From Gluconobacter sp. P1C6_b (GTDB taxonomy: Bacteria; Pseudomonadota; Alphaproteobacteria; Acetobacterales; Acetobacteraceae), in NCBI RefSeq assembly GCF_018811945.1, contig NZ_JACRVU010000004.1, forward strand, positions 62,001 to 126,000: a DNA stretch of 64,000 bases, in the 5' to 3' direction. The translations under genes were made by a program, and so were the position numbers. A model generated the notes under the pieces. That model did no database searches, was not told where the DNA came from, and saw only the letters and a list, made by a program, of their open reading frames with translations. Position 1 is the stretch's first letter, and each line of letters begins with the position of its first letter. Below, piece after piece: positions 8,168 through 19,661 of the stretch.

Positions 8168-10531
8168 ATGGCCCTGTTCCGCGACCCCGTCTCTGTTCGG
8201 AGTGAAAGAACGTTGTCAGCCGCAGAAATCGTGGACCCAACCCAGAGCCCTGCCAGTGACCGGCGAAGGATCTTCCAGATCCTGGGGCCTCTCGTGGGCG
8301 TGCTTCTGGTCATCGCCGCGATTACAGGCATCAGCCTTCACAATTACCAGACGACCCGCAAGGGCGCGATTGCGCTGTCCAACGATCTTCTGCGCAGCCA
8401 GCAGCGCTATGTGACGCAGGAGGTCAGCGACTATCTGGCCCCGGCCTCCATCGGTGCCCTGATCGCACAGGACATGTTCCGCGATCCGTTGACCAACGCT
8501 ACGCCTGACACGTTCATGCTCTATGGCCGCTCCATCCTGACGCATACGCCGCAGGTGGACAGCTTCTATATTGCGAATGATCAGGGACAGTTCTGGATGA
8601 TCACGCGCCACGGTCAGGACGGGTTCGAGCAGACCCATTTCCAGACCGATGATGGCAGGCAGGTCTATCACCACGTCTATACGGACAAGGACGGCAACGT
8701 TACGGGCGAGAGTTCGGATCCGGCAGAGGGCTATAATGTCGTCACGCGCCCGTGGTTCGCAAAAGCCGTCAAGCATCAGAATGACCCGGAACGGCAGCTC
8801 CACTGGACCGACCCTTACGCCTATATTTCGACGCATCAGTTCATCATCACCGCCTCGCTCGCTTTTGACGGGCATGACGGGCATAAATCGGTTTTTGCGA
8901 TCAACATTTCGCTGAACCAGCTGACCTCGTTCCTTAATAAACTTCAGGTCGGGCGCAGTGGACAGGCGGTGATCGTGGATATGCACGGCCAGATTATCGC
9001 CGGGCACAATGTCGCGGCCGGGCAGGATCCAAAAACCTTCGATCCGGGGAATGTGTTCCTCGATCCCAAGACGCAGCCCGTCTTTATCCACGCTCTCAAC
9101 CGCTTTCGCATCAAGGGACCGGGCACGGGCGTGGTGCAGGCGCGGGGCAAGAATTACGTCACGATTGCCTCCGAACTGCCGTTTGTGCACCGGCACTGGG
9201 TGCTGCTGCTGAATGCGCCGGAAAGCGATTTTGCCGATTTCGCGCAAACGGCGCGGCGGCAGAATATCGGATTTTCTCTGCTGGTGGTCGGACTGGCTTC
9301 GGTGCTCGCGCTCGCGCTGGTCGCGCAGGGGCGGCATGTGGAACGTCTGAGAAAGCGGCTTCAGCGGGGGCGGGATCAGGTCAAGGCGGAAAATGCCTCG
9401 CTGCTGGAAATTGCCAGCACGCCGGACCTGTTTGATTCCGCGCACGAAGTGCCGATCCTGACCGAGGCCCTGACGGCCCGGACTAGCGCGCGGCGTGCCA
9501 GTCTGTGGCGCCTGCTGCCGGACGGGGACCGCCTGCTGTGCGAAGATGCTTTTGATCCGTCGCGCGACGTGCACAGCACGGGCGTCGAGCTCAGCCGGCG
9601 GGACAATGGCAAGCTGTTCGAGGCTCTGGACGAGGGACATACACTTTCGATCGCGGATGCCTCGCAGGACGAGCGCACCCAGAACTTCCAGCGTGTCATC
9701 ATGCGGGCTGTGGGGGCGAATACGCTGCTGTTCCAGCCGGTTCGCAATGCGCACAAGACTGTTGGCGCGATCGTGCTGGAAGATCCGGGGCAGCCGGAGA
9801 CGATGGAGCACATCATCGCCATCGTGGGGTCCATCGTGGCCCTGCGTTTTGCCAAGCCGTTCGATGCGGCGGGGGGTGAGGGGGCGTCCGGTCTGGCGAT
9901 ACCGACCGAAAAGCACGACACGCGGTTTGACGAGGGCTTTCTTCTGGAGCCTTCTGCCACGGCCGGTGAGCCGGTTGCGGCGGGTGTGTATCCGCAGGTT
10001 CCAGTCATGGTCATTTCCTTCGTGGACCCCTATGCGCCGGACCGTGACAGTATCTCGCGCGCCATGAACGTCATCCGTACGCTCAGTCTGGAAATCCAGA
10101 AAATCGCGCGTGACAGCGGGCTGTTCTCCGTTCAGGTGGTGAGCAACCGGCTCGTCCTCGTGGGCGGCTGTTCGCAGACGCCGGACCCGTCAGCGGCTGT
10201 CCGGCTGGCGGATGCGGCGGTCTCGATCCGTGAGGCGTGCCTGTCCTCGCTGGCCGAGGCGGATCTGGATCCCGTGTTCCGGATCGGCATGGATGTCGGC
10301 TCGGTCATGGCTTCGGAACTCGGAGAAGGGCCTTCGGTCTTCAACATCTGGGGCGATGCGCTCAATGGCGCCGAACTTCTGACCGGCAGCGCGCCGGATG
10401 CAGGAACGATCCAGGTGTCCGAACAGGCCTACATGATCCTGCGGGAACATTTCCTCTTCCGGGAGAGGGGGATGTTCTACCTGCCCCATAGCGGGATTAC
10501 CCGCAGCTTTGTTCTGGCGGGGCGCCGATGA
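8168..10531 (+). CDS. CACHE-GAF membrane sensor with degenerate class III cyclase domain
   Basis: This protein of 787 residues runs in order: transmembrane helix (35-57), periplasmic double-CACHE-like sensor (60-355), second helix (367-387), charged linker, GAF-like domain (410-560) and a C-terminal class III nucleotide-cyclase fold (610-787). In the cyclase fold the two metal-binding Asp positions read Ser617 (VISFVD) and Asn660 (VVSNRL). In FNIWGDALNGAELL the base-selecting Asp is Asn726, the transition-state Asn733 is kept, and the transition-state Arg is Leu737. It should therefore be catalytically dead and may act as a ligand-gated protein switch. ATG 8168 lacks a close ribosome site; in-frame TTG 8150 sits 3 nt after GGAGG. 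It overlaps mlaE by 4 nt (ATGA). Confidence 0.82.
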   Translation: MALFRDPVSVRSERTLSAAEIVDPTQSPASDRRRIFQILGPLVGVLLVIAAITGISLHNYQTTRKGAIALSNDLLRSQQRYVTQEVSDYLAPASIGALIAQDMFRDPLTNATPDTFMLYGRSILTHTPQVDSFYIANDQGQFWMITRHGQDGFEQTHFQTDDGRQVYHHVYTDKDGNVTGESSDPAEGYNVVTRPWFAKAVKHQNDPERQLHWTDPYAYISTHQFIITASLAFDGHDGHKSVFAINISLNQLTSFLNKLQVGRSGQAVIVDMHGQIIAGHNVAAGQDPKTFDPGNVFLDPKTQPVFIHALNRFRIKGPGTGVVQARGKNYVTIASELPFVHRHWVLLLNAPESDFADFAQTARRQNIGFSLLVVGLASVLALALVAQGRHVERLRKRLQRGRDQVKAENASLLEIASTPDLFDSAHEVPILTEALTARTSARRASLWRLLPDGDRLLCEDAFDPSRDVHSTGVELSRRDNGKLFEALDEGHTLSIADASQDERTQNFQRVIMRAVGANTLLFQPVRNAHKTVGAIVLEDPGQPETMEHIIAIVGSIVALRFAKPFDAAGGEGASGLAIPTEKHDTRFDEGFLLEPSATAGEPVAAGVYPQVPVMVISFVDPYAPDRDSISRAMNVIRTLSLEIQKIARDSGLFSVQVVSNRLVLVGGCSQTPDPSAAVRLADAAVSIREACLSSLAEADLDPVFRIGMDVGSVMASELGEGPSVFNIWGDALNGAELLTGSAPDAGTIQVSEQAYMILREHFLFRERGMFYLPHSGITRSFVLAGRR

Positions 10532-11352
10532 AAGGGCTGCGCAATCTCGACCGGATCACGATGGTCCGGAGCATGCTGGTGCATCTGGGGTATTTTTCCC
10601 GCACGCAGATGCGTTTTACGCTCATGATGATCGGCGCTGGCTGGGGCATCATGCGCGAGGCGACGCGGCTGACGACCTGGCGGCGGACGGTGCGGATCGA
10701 ATTCTGGGCCTCCCTGCATCAGGCGGTGGGTGGCGGCATTCTCAGTACGCTGGTGACGGCGGCGCTGACGGGCTTCGGCATTGTGGCGCAGACCGTCTAC
10801 TGGCTCGGTTTCGCGGGCATGGCACAGATGACCGGCTCCATCCTCTCCACGGTTCTGGTGCGTGAGATCGCGCCGGTTCTGGTGGGCGTGATTCTGCTGG
10901 GACGGTCTGGCATGCTGATGCTCACCGAACTCGGCACGCTCACGACGGGGGGGCAGATGCGCGCCATGACCGGGATGGGGATCGACCCGTTCATCTCGTT
11001 CCTGCTGCCACGCAGTCTCGCCATGACGATCAGCGGCTTCACGCTTGGCGTCATTTTCAGCATGACGGCCCTTCTGGTCGGCTATGCCGTCTGTCGTGTC
11101 GAAGATGCGATCACGATGCCGATCTGGGCCTTTCTGGATCAGGTGGTCAGCAGCGTGAAGCCGATCGACTATTTTGTGATTCCGGCCAAATTCATTTTCA
11201 GCGGCTATGCCGTCGGCGTGTGTTCGTGCCTGTCCGGCATGGATGTCACCACCGAGGACGACCTGTCGAGCATGCTACCGCGCGGGTTTGCGCGCGGGAT
11301 GCTGTCCATCATGGTCATTAACGTCGTTTTCAGCGTGTGCTTCGATGGCTGA
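10528..11352 (+). CDS. mlaE: MlaE-family ABC transporter permease
   Basis: This 274-residue permease has five or so hydrophobic helices and the MlaE-type core, with VLVREIAPVLVGVILLGRSG and TELGTLTTGGQMRAMTGMGIDP (the coupling helix that contacts the ATPase). In the Mla pathway the dimeric permease sits in the inner membrane with MlaF ATPase and the MlaD ring and moves phospholipid between membranes. Unlike its ATPase partner, it looks intact. The start overlaps the sensor gene by 4 nt and the end overlaps the MlaF-like gene by 8 nt. Confidence 0.92.
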   Translation: MKGLRNLDRITMVRSMLVHLGYFSRTQMRFTLMMIGAGWGIMREATRLTTWRRTVRIEFWASLHQAVGGGILSTLVTAALTGFGIVAQTVYWLGFAGMAQMTGSILSTVLVREIAPVLVGVILLGRSGMLMLTELGTLTTGGQMRAMTGMGIDPFISFLLPRSLAMTISGFTLGVIFSMTALLVGYAVCRVEDAITMPIWAFLDQVVSSVKPIDYFVIPAKFIFSGYAVGVCSCLSGMDVTTEDDLSSMLPRGFARGMLSIMVINVVFSVCFDG

Positions 11353-12064
11353 GACTGACGATGTTTTCCCGAATACGCTGGATGCCCGGCTTGAGCTGCT
11401 GGATGCCAAGCCGCAGTTCGATGAGAGCGGGCTGGTGTCGAGCCGCTACAACCTGCGTCTCAATGCCGGCGAATGCGCCCTGATCGAGTGCCGGGACATG
11501 GGGCAGGCGGCGCTTTTCGCCGATATGTGCGTTGGTCTCATTCCGTTGGGCGATGGTCATGTCCGCTGCATGGGGCTGGACTGGGCCGATCTCGATGAAC
11601 GGCGCAGCAACGCGCTGCGGGGTCGGATCGGACGGGTCGTGATGACGGGCGGATGGGTGGACCTGTACGGGATGCACATGAACATCCTGTGGCCACAACT
11701 GCACCATACACGTATCCCGATCGACAGGCTTCAGTCCCAGGCCGTGCATCTTGCCGTCCGGCTCGGCCTGCCTGGCCTTCCGGTGATCCCGCCGAACCGC
11801 CTGTCGGCGATGGACCGCCAGCGCGCGGCCTGTGTGCGGGCCATGATGGGGGAGCCGGCGCTTCTGCTGCTGGAGCATCCGATGGAAGGGGCCTCGGCCG
11901 GTCTGATGAATGCGTTTCTGTCTCTCGTGACCGATCTGCGGGACCGGGGATGCGCGGTTGTGTGGATGGCTCCGGATGAAAGCGGGTGGGGGGATTATGC
12001 GTCCGATGCCACCATCCGCCTGCGCCTTTATGATGACGGACTGTTTTCGATGCGAGGTTCCTGA
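11345..12064 (+). CDS. MlaF-like ABC subunit with all ATPase motifs lost
   Basis: This 239-residue protein aligns along its length with MlaF-type ABC ATPases but every catalytic motif has decayed. Walker A (GxxGxGKST) reads ECRDMGQAA at 48-56, with no Lys. The signature LSGGQ reads LSAMD at 153-157. Walker B ends Glu177-His178 instead of Asp-Glu. The H-loop His is missing (WMAPDES). The frame is open, codon use looks normal and the overlaps with mlaE (8 nt) and mlaD (1 nt) are tight, so it seems to be maintained as a protein rather than a recent pseudogene. It may be a structural subunit or may pair with an ATPase encoded elsewhere. Confidence 0.85.
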   Translation: MAETDDVFPNTLDARLELLDAKPQFDESGLVSSRYNLRLNAGECALIECRDMGQAALFADMCVGLIPLGDGHVRCMGLDWADLDERRSNALRGRIGRVVMTGGWVDLYGMHMNILWPQLHHTRIPIDRLQSQAVHLAVRLGLPGLPVIPPNRLSAMDRQRAACVRAMMGEPALLLLEHPMEGASAGLMNAFLSLVTDLRDRGCAVVWMAPDESGWGDYASDATIRLRLYDDGLFSMRGS

Positions 12065-13020
12065 TGTTTCGCGTGCGCCAGACCGAAACCGCCCGTCCGC
12101 TCTTTCAGAACCGCTATGCGGATGAATGGGTCGGGCTGCTTGTCCTTGCCGCGATCGTCATGTTCTCGGTCGCCGTTGTGGAGGCCGGTTTCCTGCGCCA
12201 GTGGCTGACGCCGGAAAAGAAACTGCATTTCGTGCTGCCCGAGAGCGGCGTGGCCGGGCTTGCGATCGGCAATGATATCGAGGTCATGGGCGTCCATGCG
12301 GGCGAAATCCGGCGCCTCAAGCTCAACGAGACGGGCCGGATGTATGCGGAAGGAGATCTGGACCCGCAGTTTGCCAATTTCATTCGGCAGGACAGTACGG
12401 CCATCATCCGCCATCGCCTGATCGTGGCGGGCGCAAGCTACATTGAACTGGGCCGGGGCAAGGGCAAGCCGCTCGACTGGGATTACGCGGTCCTTCAGGC
12501 GACGGTCGAGGCCAATCCGGCAGATGTGATCACCCAGACCGTCACGGATCTTCGCAACAAGCTCGTACCAGCCATGAACAACGTCCAGCTCATTACGACC
12601 CAGGTCAACGACATGCTGACCGACATGCGCAAGGGGCAGGGCACGATCGGCGGACTGCTGGTCAAGGATGACGTGCTCGACAAGGCCAATGCCGCGCTGG
12701 CGCATCTCGATACTGTCATCGCGGATCTCAGACCCATTGAAAAACAGGCGGGGGGCGTCATGACGAAGGTTGACGGAACGATGGCCAATGCCAGGGCCGC
12801 GACGGCCAGCCTGCGTCAGAGCATGCCGCAGGTTCAGCAGACCGTGGCGCATGCCAATACGGCCATGGCGCAGCTTCCGGCTCTTCTGGCTCAGGCCGAG
12901 GCGAGTGCGAGCAGTCTGCGAAAACTGACGGATCAGTTGCGCGGGCTGTGGCTGCTGGGCGGTGGGGGCAGCCGGAAGGAGCCCTCGCGTCGTCTGCCGG
13001 CGCAGGCGGTGCGGCCATGA
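12064..13020 (+). CDS. mlaD: MlaD/MCE-domain lipid transport protein
   Basis: This 318-residue protein has one N-terminal membrane helix (about 22-44) and an MCE domain (about 52-130) with LPESGVAGLAIGNDIEVMGVHAGEI, the usual start of the lipid-channel fold. A long periplasmic helical region follows (150-290), rich in Ala, Gln and Thr heptads, as in MCE proteins that form tubes or needles. It should form the periplasmic hexameric lipid conduit on the MlaE dimer. It starts within TGATG at the end of the MlaF-like gene and overlaps the next lipoprotein gene by 4 nt. Confidence 0.92.
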   Translation: MFRVRQTETARPLFQNRYADEWVGLLVLAAIVMFSVAVVEAGFLRQWLTPEKKLHFVLPESGVAGLAIGNDIEVMGVHAGEIRRLKLNETGRMYAEGDLDPQFANFIRQDSTAIIRHRLIVAGASYIELGRGKGKPLDWDYAVLQATVEANPADVITQTVTDLRNKLVPAMNNVQLITTQVNDMLTDMRKGQGTIGGLLVKDDVLDKANAALAHLDTVIADLRPIEKQAGGVMTKVDGTMANARAATASLRQSMPQVQQTVAHANTAMAQLPALLAQAEASASSLRKLTDQLRGLWLLGGGGSRKEPSRRLPAQAVRP

Positions 13021-13919
13021 AGCGGGTTTTTCTGGCCTGCACGGCCCTGATGGTCCTGACGCTGGGCGGCTGCTCGTCTTCAACCGCGACGAAGGGGCCA
13101 AAGCCCGATCAGCCTTATGAAGATGCCATGGATACCGGCAAGAGTGTCTATGGGATCGGTCAGGCCACACAGGCTGAGGCCCAGTACCGGACCGCGATGG
13201 ATCGCGCCCTGATGCGGGATGACGCGGCGTCCATTCACGAAGCCGGGTTCAATCTGGCGACGGTCCTGCTGGCGGAAGACGAGCCGCAGAAAGCCCTGCA
13301 AAGTCTTAACGAGACCGAAGCCGCGCTCAGCCTGCGCGGTGTATCGGATACGTCCGATCTGGCCGTGATCCGAGCGGCCGCCTTGTACAGGCTTCATGAC
13401 ACGGTGTTCGCGTCGCAGGCTGTGGATCGCGCGCTACAGTCTCCGGATATGGGAATCCGTGAACGGGCGCTTTACCTGTCAGGTCTGATCGCAGCGGATC
13501 TGAGGCAGGATACGGTTCTGGCCCAGCGCGTGAATGATCTGGCGGCCTTCCGTAAAACCAGCGCGCAGGTTGACCGGCAGGAACTGACGGCCCGTCTGAA
13601 CCTGTTGCGCGGCCAGCCTGAACTGGCCGGCAGCGAGGCCCTGTCGGTTGTGAAAAGCCGCCGTGACGCGCTGGATTATCGCGGGATGCGCCGGGCGCTC
13701 ACTCTGGCGGCCGATGCGGCCGAGGTGGCGGGGCATCAACCACAGGCTGCGGCCCTTCGGCAGCAGGAAAAAATCAGCGAGCAGGTGGCAGAAAAGCAGG
13801 CTGGAGACGATGGGGCCGCGCCAAAAGAGACCGCCTCTGACAAGGCGGAACCCGGCAAGGTTACGGTCCAGGTTCATGGAACCCCGGTCGACCAGTCAGG
13901 TCTCGGCGCATCCGACTGA
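13017..13919 (+). CDS. Lipoprotein with TPR-like helices, last gene of the Mla-like operon
   Basis: This 300-residue protein has a signal peptide ending LGGC, with acylation at Cys19. Regular helical pairs follow (about 60-260) resembling TPR/SEL repeats, then a charged Lys/Glu/Ala tail (265-300). I do not recognise a named family. It starts in an ATGA overlap with mlaD and is followed by a clear terminator, so it belongs to the same transcript. By position it could be the outer-membrane or periplasmic partner of the MCE complex, replacing the auxiliary lipoproteins (PqiC type) of other MCE systems. That role is inference. Confidence 0.8.
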   Translation: MKRVFLACTALMVLTLGGCSSSTATKGPKPDQPYEDAMDTGKSVYGIGQATQAEAQYRTAMDRALMRDDAASIHEAGFNLATVLLAEDEPQKALQSLNETEAALSLRGVSDTSDLAVIRAAALYRLHDTVFASQAVDRALQSPDMGIRERALYLSGLIAADLRQDTVLAQRVNDLAAFRKTSAQVDRQELTARLNLLRGQPELAGSEALSVVKSRRDALDYRGMRRALTLAADAAEVAGHQPQAAALRQQEKISEQVAEKQAGDDGAAPKETASDKAEPGKVTVQVHGTPVDQSGLGASD

Positions 13920-13927
13920 ACGATCAC

Positions 13928-13967
13928 AGGCTACAGACCTCATAGTTCATGAGGCCTGTAGCCTTTT
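13928..13967 (+). terminator. Intrinsic terminator of the Mla-like operon
   Basis: AGGCTACAG pairs with CTGTAGCCT, and inside it CCTCAT pairs with ATGAGG, with a single A/C mismatch and a 5-nt loop. TTTT follows. It lies 8 nt past the lipoprotein stop. Confidence 0.85.
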
Positions 13968-14417: not shown

Positions 14418-15970
14418 TTACAGGTTCCCGAGAACCTTGAGGCCCACCAGTGTCGCATTCGGAATAACCGAGGTCTGGCCGGGACGCATCATGTACTCAA
14501 ACTCGGGCTGCAGCACGAGACCCGGCCGGATGGGGACGCCGTAATAGGCTTCCAGAATGGCGGAATGGGTCTGCGGGCCGTTGACGAAAGCCCCCATGGA
14601 CATGCCCGCCAGCTGTCTCAGGCGCTGACCGACCGTGATGGCCGGGCTCATCTGATAATAGGAATACATCACGCCGAACCGGTCGAATGGCCGACGGGGG
14701 ATAATGCCAAGCAGCGATGCGCCGACATAGACCTGATCCGAGAATGTCGAAACGCTGGGCGTGTTGTGTACATAGCCGGCGAGGATGTATCCGCCCGCCA
14801 TCTGGTGCTGGCCGCCCTTGCGATACACCATCTGGTCCGCTTCGATATAGAACGTATCGCGCGGTTTGGTGGCGTCATGGAAGACCTCCTTCGCGAACAT
14901 CGCCGGAATGGTCCCGAGGCGATCGGCATAAGGCGATGTGTCATGCGCGAAGCCGAGCTTGTAATGGCCTGGAAGGTTATCTGGACCGATAAAGGGCTCC
15001 CAGGTCAGTCGATCGGAAGCATGACACCGGTTGAGTGTTCACTGCCCCAGGCCCAGCCGCTGGGATTTTCCGTCAGCGCGCCGACCCTGTAGACGCCGGT
15101 TCGCAGGGTCAGGTCCCGTGTGGGTTTGAAACGCAGCGTGCCGCCCCAGTTGGCTTTCGGATAGACGCTCCAGCCCTCGTCGGCCTTGATGGCGGGTGGT
15201 GCGGAGCACTGAACCATGAACGTGCAGAGCAGCACGGACGTCGCATAGGTATGCGTGAGCGTGATGCGGCCGATATTGATGTTGAGACGGTTGTTGAAAA
15301 ACGATTTTTCGAGATAGATGTCCGCCAGATGGGCCGCCGCATGGCCCGAGAGGCTGTAGACCTCACTCAGCAGGACATGATGTTCCCCGACATGGTCGTA
15401 GGACACTTCGCGGCCTGCACGCTCCATCATCACGGCATGCAGGATCCAGCCATCCAGTCCGAGCAGCTTGCCCAGATCCCATCGCGTATTGAAGGTCAGT
15501 TCATGGGCGTAGGACATGCCCTTGCTGATACCGCCCCCGACATTCGCCATGGCTTCTCCCTTGTAGGAGAACTCGAAGCTGAAGCCGCGCTCTGCCAGCC
15601 AGTTCCGGTAAGGCGAGAGCTGGGGCGCAATATGACCGAAGGCTTCCGCCGGTACGTAATAACCGGCGGTGAGATCGCTGCGTCGCAGGGCGTCATCATT
15701 GCGATTGAGCAGCGACGAAATACTCTCCGTATCGAAAATCGCGCCCAGATGGTCGGCGGATGGCGCGGGCGGATGCGGAGGGTGAGCCGGGGTTTTGGGG
15801 ACGGGTGGCAGGGCGATTGCCGAGCCCGTGGAGGGCAACTGGCGAGGCGTCGGAGGGGGAACGCTCTGTGGAGCGACTGCGGCCTGAGCATGAACGGTGA
15901 GTGGAAAAGTGCCAACAGCCGAAAGAATATTAATCTGCAGGAATATTTTTAAAAAATACTTACAAGACAT
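14418..15970 (-). pseudogene. oprB: OprB-type carbohydrate porin, broken by a 1-nt frameshift
   Basis: Two adjacent reading frames together make one OprB porin of about 517 residues. The first part (15970-15005) has a signal peptide ending in HAQA, a Pro-rich linker and OprB strands with FDTESISSLLNRNDD, LTFNTRWDLGKLLGLDGW and NWGGTLRFKP. It stops at TGA 15005-15007 after MLPID. One base over, the frame continues LTWEPFIGPDNLPGHYKLGF through to LKVLGNL at 14418. Restoring one C (ATCGAC-CTGACC) would rejoin them. OprB porins admit glucose and other sugars. ATG 15970 follows AGGAAAG; an ATG at 15994 is less likely. Either the porin is inactive in this strain or the base is a sequencing error. 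Confidence 0.85.
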
Positions 15971-16017
15971 CTTGGTATTCTTTCCTGAGATCATGGTAAA
16001 TATGACGTATTATTTTA

Positions 16018-18736: not shown

Positions 18737-18839
18737 GGATCAATCTCCAAGGGTTGCTGCATCACACCTACCCAAAATTGTCCCATCGTGTCATCTCATC
18801 GTCACTCTTGATGAGCCGGAAAACGGACGAGGTCGCAGA

Positions 18840-19661
18840 ATGAAACACTGGCATATCGATCAGATGGACTGGAACTCCTTTGATCCATCCCGCGTCGATC
18901 CCGAGATCATCCCCCTCGTGAAGGCAGCTTCCGTGGTGGAAAAGAACGGTCTCGATTACGCCCAGTATCTCCGTCGCGTCTTCGTGGGCGATCCGGATTT
19001 CAGCAAGGCCGCCGAGAACTGGGCCGTCGAGGAAGTGCAGCACGGGGACGCGCTCGGCCGCTGGGCCATGCTGGCTGATCCGTCCTGGGATTATGAAAAG
19101 GCGTTCGACCGCTATCGTGCGTCCTACAAGATAGACGCGGATGTGGATGCGTCTATCCGTGGCTCCCGTACGGGTGAGCTGATTGCGCGCTGTATGGTCG
19201 AGACGGGCACGTCGTCGTTCTACACGGCGCTGGCCGATGCGACGGACGAACCGCTGCTCAAGGCCATCTGCAAGCAGATCGCAGCCGACGAATACCGGCA
19301 TTTCAAGCTGTTCTACGATCACATGCACCGCTACCTGAAGCGCGAGAAGCTCGGCGTCTGGGCCCGGACCCGCATTGCTCTGGGCCGCGTGACCGAGAGC
19401 GAGGACGACGAGCTGGCATCCGCCTACCATACCACCAACGAGCCGCCGGGCATGGCTTACGATCACCAGCGCTGCATCGCGGCCTACATGTCCAAGGCCA
19501 TGGGGTTCTACCAGCCCAAGCATATCGACCGGGTGACGGCGATGATCTTCAAGACCATCGGTTTCACGCCGCATTCGCGCTGGCAGAAGCTGGCCGCGAA
19601 CCTGGTCTATCGTCTGATGCAGTGGCGCCGGAAGGTCTTCCAGAAGGCCGTGGAGGCCTGA
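18840..19661 (+). CDS. Ferritin-like diiron protein
   Basis: This 273-residue helical protein has a complete diiron ligand set: Glu34, Glu65-x-x-His68, Glu121 and Glu151-x-x-His154. The arrangement matches ferritin-like/acyl-ACP desaturase-type four-helix bundles. The C-terminus is basic. The substrate is unknown; oxidative lipid chemistry or oxygen scavenging are possibilities for the family. The start is ATG 18840 with GAGG upstream; the reading frame is open earlier but without protein character. Confidence 0.75.
   Translation: MKHWHIDQMDWNSFDPSRVDPEIIPLVKAASVVEKNGLDYAQYLRRVFVGDPDFSKAAENWAVEEVQHGDALGRWAMLADPSWDYEKAFDRYRASYKIDADVDASIRGSRTGELIARCMVETGTSSFYTALADATDEPLLKAICKQIAADEYRHFKLFYDHMHRYLKREKLGVWARTRIALGRVTESEDDELASAYHTTNEPPGMAYDHQRCIAAYMSKAMGFYQPKHIDRVTAMIFKTIGFTPHSRWQKLAANLVYRLMQWRRKVFQKAVEA

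Follow-up and report, generated by a model that had tools for sequence, protein, structure and literature searches.

An MCE transporter gene set of Acetobacteraceae that combines a catalytically bare MlaF-like subunit with a degenerate cyclase sensor

Results

Organization of the gene set

The window analyzed here is a stretch of 64,000 nucleotides from Gluconobacter sp. P1C6_b (contig NZ_JACRVU010000004.1, positions 62,001 to 126,000). On its forward strand, from position 8213 to 13919, it carries five genes that code for a sensor, an MlaE-family permease, a protein with the nucleotide-binding-domain (NBD) fold of ATP-binding cassette (ABC) proteins that lacks the catalytic motifs (here referred to as pseudo-MlaF), an MlaD/MCE protein and a TPR lipoprotein. 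This gene set is almost always inherited as a unit within the Acetobacteraceae, and its pseudo-MlaF has lost the catalytic residues of an ATPase while its gene is under purifying selection. With a probability of roughly 0.45, we read the products as a conserved MCE lipid conduit from the inner to the outer membrane whose own NBD no longer hydrolyzes ATP, control lying with a dedicated sensor.

All five open reading frames (ORFs) are present in the window. In the order given above, consecutive genes overlap by 4, 8, 1 and 4 nt, and these overlaps are identical in the 12 Gluconobacter loci having all five genes. A preliminary description of this DNA had proposed five genes overlapping by 1-8 nt, namely a sensor, MlaE, a dead MlaF, MlaD and a TPR-like lipoprotein, followed by a single terminator. 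The ORFs and domain searches bear out all five parts, the measured overlaps lie in the proposed range, and one terminator-like hairpin ending in TTTT is found behind the set at 13928-13964 (+). This hairpin has a folding energy of −25.6 kcal/mol (z −5.7), a value that none of 200 shuffled sequences matched; it has only four terminal Ts, and it is absent from the list of a mechanical terminator scan. A promoter could not be identified by scanning, as 3 promoter-like sites were found against 2.5 expected. Because the genes overlap, an ORF for an MlaB/STAS subunit between them is excluded, and the ORF and Pfam scans revealed no such subunit elsewhere in the operon, the MlaE protein being 274 aa long without an N-terminal extension.

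Conservation and linkage in the Acetobacteraceae

Searches with the single pseudo-MlaF sequence identified homologues of at least 80 bits in 61 of 200 Acetobacteraceae genomes, the genome of the window included, and the next-best match had 48 bits. The copies of G. oxydans NBRC 14819 and of G. sphaericus NBRC 12467 are 99% identical to it, and a scan of contigs for short peptide patterns of the query returned 13 loci, all from Gluconobacter. All 60 family loci from other genomes have the genes for the sensor, MlaE, pseudo-MlaF and MlaD side by side, on one strand and in the same order. The lipoprotein gene is in place in 52 of these loci at an E-value of 1e-3; of the eight in which it was missed, four are less than 500 nt away from a contig end. 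A sensor profile matched 64 of the 200 genomes, which are the 61 holders of pseudo-MlaF and three others (G091, G108 and G163), in each of which the locus is cut by a contig end downstream of the sensor. As a control, the ten genes flanking the operon were followed through the same loci and recurred in only 0-31 of the 60, counts that are lowered because the stretches compared reach little further than the outermost of these genes and some of the stretches stop at a contig end. General synteny is thereby rejected as the cause of the linkage, although the genomes are related and the counts do not represent independent events. The preliminary description would have been contradicted by sensor and transporter genes that are rarely adjacent in relatives; they are neighbors in 60 of 60 family loci, and the order is also kept in 12 of 14 loci at a greater distance.

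Fifteen gene rows in 13 loci were flagged as ending inside the match or at a contig end, some of which we take as extraction artefacts where the tblastn match runs upstream of the start. Stops occur inside some profile matches, namely for pseudo-MlaF in genus g33 and for the sensors of G040, G122, G158 and G173, and open frames of the expected length were found for pseudo-MlaF in the three g33 loci and for the sensors of G040, G122 and G173. One locus (L045) starts within mlaE at the edge of its contig and for that reason has no sensor. Two genomes of about 2.0 Mb carry broken-looking copies: in G136 (L062) the sensor is in two pieces, and in G126 (L113) the operon is in several fragments and a strong canonical MlaE match is absent.

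An NBD fold without catalytic residues, under purifying selection

Pseudo-MlaF (239 aa; 11345-12064, +) scores 13 bits against Pfam ABC_tran, for which the cut-off is 25. Its relationship to NBDs is nonetheless apparent from NCBIfam matches to FtsE (40 bits) and MlaF (33 bits), and from matches to the PDB sequences of PhnL (42 bits) and MlaF (38 bits). For this and the other proteins, motifs and domains were compared in chosen subsets of loci. Aligned to the two canonical MlaF proteins encoded in the genome of the window, none of 87 pseudo-MlaF sequences has the Walker A lysine, which agrees with the dead MlaF of the preliminary description and rules out a sequencing error; a 166-aa sequence (L113) was excluded from this count. 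Both signature glycines are likewise found in 0/87. The Walker B aspartate is present in two sequences and the catalytic glutamate in ten, the two never together, and the H-loop histidine in two. In the window protein, the Walker A position (11489-11521) reads CRDMGQAALFA against the canonical GGSGSGKSVLL, the signature position (11801-11824) LSAMDRQR against LSGGMQKR, and the Walker B position (11861-11881) LLLLEHP against IMFFDEP, while the switch histidine of the H-loop is replaced by proline (11972-11974). The Walker A and B, signature and H-loop features that characterize the ATPase of an Mla-type transporter were thus not found in pseudo-MlaF. The Q/M position of the signature is Asp in 83 of the 87 sequences (Asp or Glu in 86) and the Walker B aspartate position is Glu in 83, and the Walker A lysine and serine positions are variable across the family.

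The gene is under purifying selection. Among 16 sequences from the genus, the median ratio of nonsynonymous to synonymous substitution rates (dN/dS) is 0.069, calculated from the 92 of 120 pairs with dS between 0.05 and 1.5; the corresponding medians are 0.032 for MlaE, 0.041 for MlaD, 0.055 for the sensor and 0.127 for the lipoprotein. This constraint and the occurrence in 61 of 200 genomes rule out an isolated pseudogene. AlphaFold2 predicts an NBD fold for pseudo-MlaF (pLDDT 91.1) in which a strand at the Walker A position is followed by a helix that starts with the former P-loop segment, so that the P-loop itself is absent. The closest PDB folds are YbbA, LolD and MlaF (Foldseek E-values 2e-15 to 4e-15).

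Permease, MCE protein and lipoprotein

The permease (10528-11352, +) overlaps the sensor gene by 4 nt and matches the MlaE family PF02405 with 130 bits (cut-off 22.5). Alignment of MlaE homologues showed that R145 (codon 10960-10962) corresponds to Asp in both canonical MlaE proteins of the same genome, and that 24 of 28 aligned homologues have Arg or Lys at this position. The surrounding stretch is presumably the helix that contacts the NBD, as in MlaFEDB structures. The two canonical MlaE/MlaF systems of this genome (L001 and L002) have MlaF proteins with intact motifs, and one of their MlaE proteins is 443 aa long with a long N-terminal extension that has no Pfam match. Elsewhere, the same genome encodes two proteins with a single MCE domain each, and a frame of 566 aa has three MCE matches (L004-L006).

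The MlaD protein (12064-13020, +) contains an MCE domain at residues 63-129 (PF02470, 37.1 bits, cut-off 25.1), preceded by one transmembrane segment (18-46) and followed by a tail of about 170-190 residues, as judged from hydropathy and Pfam. Residues 23-281 match TIGR00996, the mycobacterial Mce model, and together with the tail this match suggests a needle. The lipoprotein (13017-13919, +) reaches no Pfam family cut-off, and no PqiC-type family is among its Pfam or NCBIfam matches. Its lipobox cysteine, Cys19, is invariant in 24 of 24 aligned lipoproteins, and an aspartate follows it in none. AlphaFold2 predicts an all-helical solenoid (pLDDT 87), the best Foldseek matches of which are TPR proteins, including PilW/PilF.

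A sensor with a degenerate cyclase domain

The sensor gene (8213-10531, +) was delimited by Pfam matches, hydropathy and a comparison of start codons. Numbered in a 787-aa frame, the protein comprises a transmembrane segment (33-60), a dCache_1 domain (121-333; 8528-9166), a second transmembrane segment (365-391), a GAF domain (431-553; 9458-9826) and a C-terminal pseudo class III nucleotide cyclase (Guanylate_cyc, 632-782; 10061-10513). All of 30 aligned sensors match dCache_1 and Guanylate_cyc, and 25 match GAF. The start is most likely TTG at 8213, judging from the aligned loci, and not the ATG at 8168 that had been assigned previously: among the 12 Gluconobacter loci reaching this point, the ATG is replaced by ACG in five and the upstream frame of a sixth (L051) contains a stop, whereas the TTG is kept in all 12, with CGGAG about 10 nt upstream.

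The cyclase domain is homologous to mycobacterial Cya-type class III adenylate cyclases (PDB 5o5k and 4p2m). Compared with these structures, the window sensor lacks the second metal-binding Asp (N660), both purine-selecting residues (Q656 for Lys, N726 for Asp) and the transition-state Arg (L737). It retains the transition-state Asn (N733), alone among the 30 sensors, and by-eye alignment indicates that D620 is probably the retained first metal-binding Asp. Across the 30 sensors, the second metal-binding Asp is found in two, the transition-state Asn in one and the Arg in two, while W728 is kept in 29, G729 in 30 and N726 in 28. The set that marks an active class III cyclase, two metal-binding aspartates plus the transition-state Asn/Arg, was not found in these sensors, and from these alignments the domain looks dead. 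The pseudo-cyclase of the preliminary description therefore stands as regards most catalytic positions, which are lost; it needs amending in that N733 and probably D620 remain.

Wider distribution and loci without the sensor

A pseudo-MlaF profile built from 29 sequences was used to search beyond the family. At the order level it matches 138 of 250 genomes at 1e-25, all from the Acetobacteraceae, in a sample that may or may not include other families. At the class level, 41 of 385 genomes pass 1e-20; only six of these exceed 240 bits, including two that do not belong to the Acetobacteraceae, and the 35 with best matches below 90 bits were taken as ordinary ABC ATPases. At the phylum level, an overlapping sample of 398 genomes adds no family at 1e-30. 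Within two other alphaproteobacterial families, pseudo-MlaF occurs in 5 of 17 and 3 of 39 genomes, and all eight loci have the sensor, MlaE, pseudo-MlaF, MlaD and the lipoprotein. Six divergent loci from the Acetobacteraceae were also examined; the sensor is present in four (one of them, L147, cut by a contig end) and absent in two.

The two loci without a sensor (L144 in G266 and L145 in G292) belong to genus g95. The profile that found sensors in 64 family genomes found none elsewhere in these two genomes. A tree was built from the concatenated MlaE, MlaF and MlaD sequences of 28 chosen and 14 distant loci and rooted on the two canonical systems of the window's genome. It unites the two loci with a support of 1.0, within a larger clade (0.99) of which the five remaining members carry the sensor; its deepest splits are moderately supported (0.59 and 0.83). 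Since the sensor-less loci are nested among sensor-bearing ones (supports 0.78 and 0.99), the tree makes loss of the sensor likelier than a late gain in genus g95. Both loci keep the other four genes, so that MlaE, pseudo-MlaF, MlaD and the lipoprotein form the core unit, with the sensor as a nearly constant accessory. G266 and G292 offer a natural test of whether the transporter can work in the absence of the sensor.

Discussion

Relation to known MCE systems

Among the top-listed matches of open-access full-text literature searches, there was no prior description of this gene set, which agrees with the preliminary description having called it undescribed. In the literature listed there was also no Gluconobacter mutant phenotype for the operon; the main texts on knockout collections, searched with few terms, gave no relevant match, and among the matches listed for MlaD in Gluconobacter there was no relevant title. 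Like E. coli MlaFEDB (PMC7367683), the window operon encodes an MlaE-type permease, an MCE protein and a subunit with the NBD fold together. It differs in its catalytically bare NBD, in the absence of genes for MlaB/STAS, MlaC and MlaA, in the long-tailed MlaD and the TPR lipoprotein, and in the sensor gene that comes first. The chimeric Mla-Pqi system Mpc of Brucella (PMC12436622) has a similar layout of four parts, a permease, an NBD, a needle-type MlaD and an outer-membrane lipoprotein, the needle being only putative for the MlaD of the window. However, MpcF is described there as an ABC ATPase, MpcE as having an N-terminal STAS domain and MpcA as PqiC-like, whereas the window operon has a pseudo-NBD, no STAS domain, a TPR lipoprotein and an added sensor. 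E. coli PqiABC and LetAB, as treated in the same paper, combine an MCE conduit with a membrane protein without an ATPase domain. That membrane protein is PqiA or LetA, whereas the window permease is an MlaE and an NBD-fold subunit is retained, which sets the window operon apart from the Pqi/Let type.

Mycobacterial Mce1 with MceG and Mce1N (PMC10517005) likewise has a long-tailed MCE protein and regulation at the contact between permease and NBD. Its YrbE1A/B-MceG is nonetheless reported to hydrolyze ATP, and its regulator Mce1N is, in that account, not a dCache sensor and not a pseudo-NBD. Veillonella MlaEFD (PMC10665443) also lacks MlaA and MlaC and has an elongated MlaD; unlike the window operon, its MlaF is described as closely resembling that of model diderms and its MlaD as bearing an outer-membrane barrel. 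The gene set is therefore a variant of the MCE systems that lacks the ATPase, the STAS domain and the PqiC-type lipoprotein by which Mla and Mpc are recognized. According to PMC7367683, the E. coli MlaF variants K47A and E170Q fail to complement. In view of these Walker mutants, a natural family without the residues is surprising and needs another mode of operation.

A possible mode of operation

From the gene content and the two predicted folds we infer a complex, with its stoichiometry, its transport activity and direction, a ligand, gating and an energy source, along the following lines. MlaE would be the gate in the inner membrane, and several copies of MlaD would assemble into a ring of MCE domains, from which a helical needle would span the periplasm. 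By analogy with the layout of Brucella Mpc and E. coli Pqi, the TPR lipoprotein may hold or receive this needle at the outer membrane. A dimer of pseudo-MlaF under MlaE would act as a structural clamp and not as a motor. The dCache domain of the sensor would bind a periplasmic ligand, and the resulting change would be relayed via the second transmembrane segment and GAF to a dimeric pseudo-cyclase, which, serving as a module for protein interaction, would lock or release the clamp. Lipids might then flow down a gradient or be driven by another energy source, the PqiA/LetA systems being precedents for MCE conduits free of an ATPase. The specific form in which two pseudoenzymes, a former ATPase as clamp and a former cyclase receptor as allosteric input, build a ligand-gated and ATP-independent lipid channel of the envelope is one that we propose only tentatively.

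Several observations weigh against a sensor-controlled conduit without ATP hydrolysis. Canonical-strength MlaE (best E-value 5e-69 or better) is present in 73 of 74 holder genomes tested, the exception being G126 with its decayed operon, and a partner ATPase is therefore available in principle. Regarding the loss of catalysis, the catalytic glutamate position of Walker B is still Glu in 10 of the 87 pseudo-MlaF sequences, 11 of 29 still match Pfam ABC_tran at 1e-3, and the MlaF and MlaE motifs were aligned with no more than two canonical comparators, which the window's genome supplied. In the sensors, the first metal-binding Asp is kept in 19 of 30 (by eye) and the purine-binding Lys in 11 of 30. 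Moreover, the sensor and mlaE are separated by gaps of up to about 200 nt in several genera, and by about 1 kb once (L098), which allows separate transcription there. Finally, the transporter without a sensor in G266 and G292 indicates that gating by the sensor is not indispensable.

Alternative explanations

The availability of a partner ATPase bears most directly on the possibility that pseudo-MlaF pairs with, or is swapped for, the canonical MlaF of another locus, so that transport is ATP-driven after all, either by a dimer of one dead and one live subunit or by regulated recruitment. This is the main rival, since canonical-strength MlaE accompanies the gene set in 73 of 74 holder genomes (in the window's genome, L001 and L002 provide intact MlaF proteins) and since sharing of MceG has been suggested for mycobacteria: PMC10517005 describes MceG as possibly redistributed among Mce systems, with Mce1N competing with it for the permease. 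We nevertheless consider it rather doubtful. The Walker A and signature faces of pseudo-MlaF are both degenerate, so that pairing with a live subunit would leave no site complete; 24 of 28 permease homologues have Arg or Lys in place of the canonical Asp; and no dedicated partner gene is linked to the operon. Alternatively, pseudo-MlaF could still bind a nucleotide or another ligand by a non-canonical mode that regulates it, with no hydrolysis taking place. The strongly conserved new residues at the old motifs, the signature Asp and the Walker B Glu, would fit such a site. In the predicted fold, however, a helix begins where the P-loop would be, and the positions of the P-loop lysine and serine are not conserved in the family; we regard this reading as improbable.

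The combination of two dead enzymes with a sensor in a single operon, and the conservation of dCache (30/30) and GAF (25/30) in the sensors, would also be compatible with a receptor and not a pump, in which MlaE, MlaD and the lipoprotein would inform the sensor, via pseudo-MlaF, about the lipids of the envelope and the sensor would relay a signal onward, with little net transport. However, no output domain or regulator gene was seen in the operon, the cyclase looks dead, and the four transport genes persist in the loci that lack the sensor, which makes a receptor unlikely. That the locus is merely a decaying relic of an Mla locus appears very improbable: broken-looking copies occur in the small genomes G126 and G136, but the gene set is found in 61 of 200 family genomes with open frames in most loci and is under purifying selection.

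If the sensor-controlled conduit is correct, a clade-wide transporter that keeps the NBD fold without its catalytic residues separates the structural role of an NBD from its catalytic role. The near-constant co-inheritance with a dCache sensor provides a concrete case where a periplasmic signal may switch lipid traffic in the envelope. In acetic acid bacteria, tolerance of the envelope to acid and alcohol is of industrial importance.

Neighboring genes

Downstream of the operon, on the minus strand at 14418-15994, a gene for an OprB-family porin appears to be split over two frames. The ORF at 15005-15994 aligns with the first half of the OprB profile alone, and that at 14418-14900 resembles the C-terminal part of OprB by eye, which points to either a gene break or a sequence error. 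At 18801-19661 (+), the window encodes a protein with a weak match to FA_desaturase_2 (PF03405, 29 bits, cut-off 22.7).

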